A DNA stretch of 64,000 nucleotides from Anaerolinea thermophila (GTDB taxonomy: Bacteria; Chloroflexota; Anaerolineae; Anaerolineales; Anaerolineaceae), in NCBI RefSeq assembly GCF_020723905.1, contig NZ_DYHZ01000003.1:124001-188000 (forward strand). Reading direction: 5' to 3'. The notes beneath the pieces were generated by a model. It had not been told where the DNA came from. It saw only the letters and a list, made by a program, of their open reading frames with translations, and searched no databases. Position numbers and translations under genes: made by a program. Shown here one piece after another: positions 25,651 to 27,541 of the stretch (the stretch's first letter is position 1; every line of letters begins with the position of its first letter).

Positions 25651-25681
25651 AAAAAAAACCTCCGAATTTTTTTATCGGAGG
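25651..25681 (-). terminator. Intrinsic terminator after the rhodanese gene
   Basis: The stem CCTCCGA/TCGGAGG is followed by eight T residues on the minus strand. It lies 17 bp after the second (true) stop of the rhodanese gene at 25698. That position fits a gene ending there and not at the UGA at 25821. Confidence 0.88.
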
Positions 25682-25697
25682 GTACAACCTTACAACC

Positions 25698-26183
25698 TCA
25701 AGGCTCGATTGGGTATTTCGCATCTACCCAGGCTTTTAAACCGCCTGATAAAGGCTTCACTTTTTCATATCCTTTGCTGAGAAGAATGTCAGCCGCACGG
25801 GCTGAACTGTTTTCGGCTGGTCAGGTGCAATATAAAATGATCCATTGATCTTTGGGTAGTTCATTCAGCCTGGATTCCAGAACCCCAAGGGGGATATTAA
25901 TAGCCCCTTTAATGTGCTGTTGAGCATACGAGTTTGAGTCCCGAACATCAACAAAAATGGCACTTTGAGTGTCGAAGGCTTTTTTGGCGTCTTCAAGAGA
26001 AATCCGTGGAATATTCGCAAAGGGAATTCCCAGATCTGGAGTTGCAGTGATCGTGGGGTTGCTGGGGGGATTGAACACCAGCCACATAAGCAATCCTATC
26101 AGAATTAACCCTGTGCCACCCAATAATAACACCATGGGTGAAAGATGCGATGGTTTTCTTTTCTTTGGTTGAGACGATTTCAT
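25698..26183 (-). CDS. Membrane-anchored rhodanese with in-frame UGA (probable selenoprotein)
   Basis: 161 residues if the UGA at 25821-25823 is read through. A basic N-terminus (MKSSQPKKRKPS) and one membrane segment (MVLLLGGTGLILIGLLMWLV) anchor a rhodanese domain: FVDVRDSNSYAQQHIKGAINIP, then WIILYCT-[UGA]-PAENSSARAADILL, and a normal family C-terminus ending in GGLKAWVDAKYPIEP. In the CxCP-type relatives the UGA position is usually Cys. A SECIS-like hairpin follows directly, and a terminator follows the downstream stop. Selenocysteine is the likely reading. A recent nonsense mutation or base error is the alternative. The track lists only the upstream part (to 25821). Confidence 0.75.
25788..25823 (-). 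promoter_or_regulatory. Candidate bacterial SECIS element
   Basis: After the UGA the RNA can fold as GU(U)CAGCC-CGUGC-GGCUGAC: a 5-bp upper stem, a single bulged U and an apical loop CGUGC. The loop begins 22 nt after UGA and has G as its second base. These features fit the general bacterial SECIS model (loop 16-37 nt from UGA, G in the first two loop bases, bulged U as in E. coli fdhF). Confidence 0.6.
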
Positions 26184-26278: not shown

Positions 26279-27541
26279 TTAATGATTTTTATCGATGAGG
26301 AAAAGAAGAAAGCCCAATATGCTGACGGAGCCGCTGATGATCAATGCTGCATTGAATCCCAGTATGCCTGCGAGAGTGGTTCCAATGAAGGGTGCAATGA
26401 TAGAAGAGACATACTGAATACTTTGCGCAGTGGAGACAAATATGGCACTGTATTTTTCAGGAACTGTGCGCATTAATTCATCGAAGAACACCAGATTCAA
26501 CCCCGCTTGAAAGATACCCGCCAGCCCTGCATAAAACGGAATGGGCCATACCGTGTGAGTGATCCCAGTGAGAATCGGATAGAGAGATACCCCAAAAGTG
26601 GTGGCAAGTAAAACCCGCCTGGAACCGTACCGACGCGACTGTCTGGTCCACAGGAAATAACCCAGAATGAGAATGGCCGTTTGTGCGGTGTTAATTGTCG
26701 CAATCCAGCTATCGGGTGCATGCAATTGACGCACAAAGTAAAGCGGAAACAAGGGCGCTGCCATGGTGGTGCCAATGGAGAAGACAAACCGTTTTAGATT
26801 GAAAGAAACAAACGACTTTTCTTCAAGAATAAGATGCAAAAATTCACGAAGACCTTCTCTGAAGGAAGAAGGACGTTCTGTGGATACCTCTTGAGGGGGG
26901 ATATTTAAATGGCTTGAAAAGTAATAACTGATCAGCCCTCCAGCAGATAAAGCCAGAAAGACAATTTGATAGTTTAATGGGAAAGAGGGTATGCGATCCA
27001 GCGCTTGTCCAACCAGAATGACAGTGAGTGTAGTGGTTAATCCCAGGATGGACCATCTTCGTGTCATCAACTCATAACGTCCCACGGGCCCTGCAACGGA
27101 ATTCATCACCACATTGAAAGAAATTGAAAGCAGTGTTTGAGGAAAGGTGGCAAAAGCCCAGATGGCTAGAATCCCAATAACTGCAGCGTGATCCTTTACT
27201 ACAAAAGTGATTAAACCGGTTAGGGCATAACAGGCAATTACCAGCAATCGGGCAAGGCTAAACCACGGCACAATGTTTCTTTGACGTTGAAGGAATTGCC
27301 CCAGAGGAATAGAAAGAAGCAAGCCAGTCACGGCTGGCATAGAAGTCAGCAATCCAACTTCAAAAGAAGAAGCGTGCAGGCGCGTTAAAAATACGGGAAG
27401 AAACGGTGCAGCAGCGCTGGCAATCCCGACTCCAATTGCATCCACCTGAACATTTATGAAATTTCGCCGTTGAATCTCTGAAGAAATTTCAGGGGTGGTA
27501 AACCATTTGTGAATTTTCTTCTGCCAGAATTGTATGGTCAT
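26279..27541 (-). CDS. Major facilitator superfamily transporter
   Basis: 420 residues with about 12 hydrophobic segments. After the first helices comes IPLGQFLQRQRNIVPW, the position of the MFS A-motif, although poorly conserved. The start lies only 3 bp after the stop of the HEAT/WD40 gene, so it is probably the last gene of the 36.7-26.3 kb operon. Nothing in the protein reveals the substrate. The downstream side has no obvious terminator before the rhodanese gene. Confidence 0.82.
   Translation of the reverse strand: MTIQFWQKKIHKWFTTPEISSEIQRRNFINVQVDAIGVGIASAAAPFLPVFLTRLHASSFEVGLLTSMPAVTGLLLSIPLGQFLQRQRNIVPWFSLARLLVIACYALTGLITFVVKDHAAVIGILAIWAFATFPQTLLSISFNVVMNSVAGPVGRYELMTRRWSILGLTTTLTVILVGQALDRIPSFPLNYQIVFLALSAGGLISYYFSSHLNIPPQEVSTERPSSFREGLREFLHLILEEKSFVSFNLKRFVFSIGTTMAAPLFPLYFVRQLHAPDSWIATINTAQTAILILGYFLWTRQSRRYGSRRVLLATTFGVSLYPILTGITHTVWPIPFYAGLAGIFQAGLNLVFFDELMRTVPEKYSAIFVSTAQSIQYVSSIIAPFIGTTLAGILGFNAALIISGSVSILGFLLFLIDKNH

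Follow-up and report, generated by a model that had tools for sequence, protein, structure and literature searches.

Rhodanese-related selenoproteins with a CxU motif, in which U denotes selenocysteine (Sec), have been listed in reviews as rhodanese-like form 3, CxU (NF041203; PMC13188914) and as COG0607 form 2 CxU (PMC9312934), in both cases as predicted and not functionally characterised. A gene with this motif was found in the window, i.e. the whole 64,000-nt stretch of Anaerolinea thermophila DNA analysed here. The complete CDS (26183..25698) was on the minus strand, for which the original prediction gave no strand; it started with an ATG at nt 26183, ended with a TGA at nt 25700..25698, and encoded a putative rhodanese selenoprotein of 161 residues. 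Its sole internal stop was one TGA (nt 25823..25821, minus strand) in the context ILYC-T-[UGA]-PAENSSARAA (translated with TGA as Sec), which was assigned as the probable codon of U121 based on the conserved UGA in relatives. Cys119, the first C of CxU, is the catalytic cysteine canonical for rhodaneses; its codon was at nt 25827..25829 (minus strand), and this position was occupied by C or U in every relative. The active-site stretch, C119-T-U121-P-A-E-N-S, was 2 residues longer than the loop of ordinary rhodaneses. A plain ORF finder returned only a 120-aa fragment ending at the UGA. As had been proposed, the rhodanese frame was open on both sides of the UGA, with the Pfam rhodanese match (PF00581, residues 63–154, 1e-18) crossing it; a GGLKAW tail was found downstream, and beyond the true stop the repeat arms CCTCCGA and TCGGAGG plus a run of eight T residues formed an intrinsic-terminator-like element (nt 25681–25651, minus strand). 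This repeat, read directly from the sequence, has a 9-base loop, outside the 3–8 limit of the scanner.

The deduced protein consisted of a basic N-terminus (charge +5 across residues 1–14), one hydrophobic helix, a linker, and a rhodanese domain. The helix (residues 15–37; nt 26073..26141, minus strand), with a hydropathy peak of 2.45, was predicted to be transmembrane and was also present in the AlphaFold2 model (pLDDT 91), which comprised this membrane helix plus the rhodanese domain (nt 25722..25997, minus strand). Assignment of the domain to the rhodanese superfamily was supported by a PF00581 score of 68.1 versus the gathering threshold of 22.2 bits, and its fold by a best Foldseek match to 6mxv (5e-10, probability 1.00); the best PDB matches, 6mxv, 3tp9, Alr3790, YgaP and GlpE, were all rhodaneses. 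In the model, with residue 121 represented as Cys, C119 and residue 121 were situated in the active-site loop between the strand 114–118 and the helix starting from 122. A 32-row alignment, with U written as C, showed that R60, D79, R81, C119, residue 121, E124, S127, A128 and P158 were invariant. From the positive-inside rule alone, the rhodanese domain is probably outside the cytoplasm; the lipoprotein-like N-termini of the Acidobacteriota proteins and some of the order relatives (...AVIAGCQS, ...LTALACN) agree with this placement.

The genome (3.29 Mb, 99.96% complete) was searched for selA, selB, selC and selD, as the original prediction had suggested, and all four were found. There was one tRNA-Sec match (68.7 bits; next-best Rfam match, tRNA-Ser), confirmed by ARAGORN with the anticodon UCA, and SelB, SelA and SelD scored 339, 549 and 366 bits, respectively. 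Because tRNA-Sec (UCA), SelB, SelA and SelD were all identified, the organism is predicted, by every sequence criterion, to decode UGA as Sec, and an absence of tRNA-Sec or SelB, which would have spoken against a selenoprotein, did not apply. SelB over the cut-off was detected in 26 of the 27 genomes possessing the UGA gene versus 47 of the 74 genomes lacking it (Fisher p 5e-4), the sole exception among the 27 being a genome 77% complete. The selD gene of this organism (L067; G000 C5:63188-64123, minus strand) is itself a selenoprotein gene, with an in-frame UGA (SCAGUASK) followed by a hairpin-forming sequence.

A search of 101 relatives showed that every top match (34 rows, down to 4e-22) contained at least one in-frame TGA; matches weaker than 4e-22 had none. 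The loci extracted amounted to 43 sequences (42 distinct); nine of them were distant loci retrieved with a protein pattern, and among these nine were eight Acidobacteriota loci with the motif. These relatives, belonging to the same family, the same order and Acidobacteriota, had frames intact on both sides of the UGA, which was located at the identical codon in all 42 distinct loci (43/43 sequences) within Y-C-[T/S]-U-x-x-E-x-[S/T]-S-A, and a stop codon was observed 39 to 63 codons past the UGA in all 43. Thus, the alignment of homologues that had been called for gave UGA throughout, and the sense codons that would have weakened the case were not seen in the close relatives, which retained UGA. 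In 400 genomes of the phylum, scanned with a DNA pattern allowing any TGN codon at both positions, a hand count of the listed matches gave 65 CxU and 7 UxU genuine matches; UGA was present in all 72, and the remaining pattern matches were due to chance. Neither a Cys codon (TGC/TGT) at the Sec position, among the 72 genuine matches, nor a TGG form was seen in these 400 genomes. Apparent CxC and CxW matches were rejected as an unrelated reading frame and an unrelated protein, and plasmid-borne rhodaneses were rejected as Cys homologues because their loops differed; a search of phages yielded ordinary rhodaneses only. The expectation that CxCP-type relatives have Cys was therefore not borne out, since the phylum yielded no Cys form with a matching loop; the nearest relatives lacking the UGA had a CRSGNRS-type loop 2 residues shorter. 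That Sec was used almost exclusively, the Cys form being absent from the 400 genomes scanned, suggests a requirement for selenium in this reaction and not an optional gain over Cys.

Several individual loci were also observed. One relative (L080; G302 C34) had no UGA and a loop of CEGPPGGAS, having apparently lost the Sec position, and its genome also contained a UxU copy. In Pyrinomonadaceae (L048, 2754 and 3187), two UGA rhodanese genes were adjacent in tandem, with the sequences YCSUGGEHTSAS and YCSUPNENTSAR. Identical UGA-rhodanese proteins were encoded in three genomes of two genera (L093, L095 and L096 in G216, G152 and G071, respectively), suggesting recent transfer, near-identical chromosomal segments, or cross-contamination.

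A putative bacterial SECIS hairpin was located at nt 25805–25789 (minus strand), with a 6-bp stem, UCAGCC/GGCUGA, and the loop CGUGC at nt 25799–25795; the sequence is TCAGCC-CGTGC-GGCTGA, and, counted from the UGA, nt 16–21 pair with nt 27–32. The distance of 21 nt from the UGA to the loop, with G as the second loop base, was exactly as originally predicted. A bulged U, predicted as well, exists in the window copy (U15, with G14-C33 beyond) but is not conserved, the outer pairs being retained in roughly 50% of the relatives at most. Bacterial SECIS elements have been defined by a loop of 3 to 9 nt, a stem of 4 to 16 bp, a G within the first two loop bases, a spacing of 16 to 37 nt, and an MFE of -7.5 or lower (PMC13188914). 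All values of the hairpin lay within these limits (5-nt loop with G second, 6-bp stem, 21-nt spacing, -8.9 kcal/mol), and the hairpin was the minimum-energy fold of the local 31-nt segment. However, an isolated 49-nt piece folded into a rival pairing, CAGCCG/CGGCUG, with a stability similar to that of shuffled sequences (z -0.12). The single-sequence fold was therefore dropped as proof of a SECIS, and the comparative data are taken as the evidence. An Rfam scan of the segment gave no SECIS match, and the sole weak match, PVT1_3 (17.9 bits versus a gathering threshold of 45), was regarded as due to chance.

The loop position was constant across relatives. In 40 distinct sequences, the third bases of the Ala codon at nt 19–21 and of the codon at nt 25–27 covaried (C-G in 32, U-A in 8, mismatch in 0), the codon pairs GCC..GCG and GCT..GCA changing jointly in 8/8 cases; the window copy had UCA/GCU in place of the AGC/GCG of others, with an A-U pair restored. 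When synonymous codons were permuted among sequences within each column (5000 trials), which left the protein sequences and the codon usage of each column unchanged, the Watson-Crick cells numbered 167.3 ± 3.7 versus 200 observed, and the mean stem was 3.96 ± 0.17 versus 5.4 observed; none of the 5000 trials reached 200, a count that is not to be read as a probability as this null ignores phylogeny. In a sliding control, in which relatedness was kept, the paired fraction fell from 82% to 22–47%. RNAalifold, unprompted, returned the same five inner pairs, and a few relatives had just 3 to 4 contiguous loop-proximal pairs. The hairpin has thus been kept with compensatory synonymous changes, and the lack of hairpin conservation that would have argued against the prediction was not observed.

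In seven phylum genomes (loci L139 to L145, in G362, G225, G217, G302, G249, G333 and G201, respectively), the codon of the catalytic Cys was also UGA, giving U-[T/A]-U (UxU). These loci possessed the same hairpin, 21 nt past the second UGA and 27 nt from the first, and one SECIS apparently serves both UGA codons. SelB over the cut-off was present in six of the seven genomes, the seventh being fragmented and 82% complete, with SelB split across contigs; tRNA-Sec over the Rfam cut-off was found in four of the seven, so that the evidence for the machinery is weaker for the remaining three. An 80-row tree placed UxU as three changes, at least two of which were forced by strong branches, one change being nested beside a CxU paralogue of the same genome. 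L116 (G143), initially counted as UxU, was discarded owing to other stops in frame. A CxU rhodanese was also observed as the C-terminal part of long membrane proteins (L071, L072, L075, L077, L085, L086, L089, L091, L160 and L161); in L072, a Pfam scan identified a Na+/H+ exchanger (PF00999) on the N-terminal side of the rhodanese, which contains the UGA. We consider it likely that these sequences represent an overlooked, phylum-wide CxU branch in which the catalytic Cys was changed to Sec at least twice, one SECIS serves two Sec residues, and fusions with Na+/H+ antiporters occur. The UxU protein is possibly a diselenide enzyme. UxU is absent from the motif list of a 2026 review (PMC13188914), and a full-text search of open-licence papers did not find it combined with rhodanese selenoproteins, which is weak evidence of novelty. 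These relatives raise the questions of whether two Sec insertions one residue apart can be directed by a single SECIS, and of what the function is of a rhodanese with Sec as the catalytic residue.

The in-frame TGA could in principle be a nonsense codon in an ordinary rhodanese, arising from pseudogene formation or from a sequencing or assembly error, as one stop splits the gene into two halves of which standard gene finders call the first only. Nevertheless, UGA at this codon recurs in dozens of genomes that span many genera and were assembled independently, the protein past the UGA shows purifying conservation, and the covarying hairpin constrains the codons on the 3′ side, leaving such an origin a negligible chance. 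Because the UGA is conserved and the hairpin covaries and lies within the SECIS limits, the gene is regarded as encoding a selenoprotein and not as a pseudogene or an error. A further alternative is non-specific read-through of the UGA (by leakiness or as Trp), or its use for the synthesis of two products. UGA is generally the leakiest stop codon, and the 120-aa fragment ends just past C119; however, Sec machinery accompanies the gene in 26 of the 27 genomes carrying it, the hairpin conforms to the model of bacterial SECIS elements, residue 121 occupies a redox position close to the catalytic Cys, a TGG form was not seen in the phylum scan, and the UGA at the catalytic Cys codon in UxU relatives is well explained by Sec only, so that read-through is very improbable. 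The machinery, the conserved UGA and the covarying hairpin thus uphold the original proposal of a probable selenoprotein, and judged from sequence comparison the gene almost certainly encodes one.

On this comparative basis, UGA codon 121 would be decoded as Sec by SelB and tRNA-Sec, directed by the downstream hairpin. In the reaction that we envisage, C119 would take up sulfane sulfur or become oxidised, U121, being more nucleophilic, would attack C119, sulfide or the reduced substrate would depart as a selenylsulfide forms between C119 and U121, and this bond may then be reduced by a thioredoxin-like partner. The protein would thus not be a simple sulfur shuttle but a persulfide/sulfane-sulfur reductase or a thiol-disulfide oxidoreductase; the chance that this mechanism holds as described is about even. 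Carrying persulfides is the classic role of rhodaneses, selenium is handled by some of them, and the fold here is that of an ordinary rhodanese; a selenoprotein acting as an ordinary sulfurtransferase with Sec tuning C119, or as a carrier binding Se instead of S, is accordingly a possibility of some weight, though not the expected one. The acceptance of Sec at both positions in UxU relatives, in favour of CxU chemistry, suits a redox pair better than tuning. As a whole, a membrane rhodanese selenoprotein with hairpin-directed Sec121 and a proposed CxU persulfide/redox chemistry is very probably the appropriate description. An MFS transporter gene was situated directly upstream (window nt 26279–27541, minus strand) and adjoined the rhodanese gene at six loci within this genus or family; the neighbours in other loci were GcvH/GcvP, tRNA-edit or FtsH-like genes. 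No consistent partner gene was observed across the neighbourhoods of the relatives, MFS being restricted to close kin, and the varied neighbourhood was therefore rejected as a functional clue, lending no support to an enzymatic role.

Compared with known systems, single-domain rhodaneses such as GlpE, PspE and YgaP share the fold and the catalytic Cys with the window protein, but have a shorter loop and neither Sec nor UGA. The non-Sec paralogue of the same genome (L063; G000 C13:339282-339584) is likewise a membrane-anchored rhodanese with 44% identity, but has a CRSGNRS loop and no UGA. TsoB (NF045694, rhodanese/DsbD fusion-like) shares a rhodanese domain with Sec, whereas its motif is UxxxxU with two Sec residues and it is much longer, the window protein scoring 34 bits versus a cut-off of 805. 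The closest is NF041203 (rhodanese_LYCAU; reference TKB26178.1), sharing the rhodanese fold, a single Sec and a CxU motif that includes the catalytic Cys; it was the best family match of the window protein (1e-25, nearly the whole model), yet the score of 89.8 bits fell below the curated cut-off of 115, and the motif is YCAU versus YCTU/YCSU here, with a membrane anchor in the present protein. Relatives scored 76.6 to 113.7 bits on this model, the Acidobacteriota relatives tested were also below the cut-off, and none of 301 phylum genomes passed it; because of these scores, the CxU branch is probably widely mis-annotated, with truncated calls in many genomes. The window gene, whose own novelty is modest, therefore belongs to the known kind of CxU rhodanese selenoprotein while standing outside the present NCBI model, not as a strict member of the NF041203 equivalog, since that family is its best match and its score is nonetheless under the cut-off.
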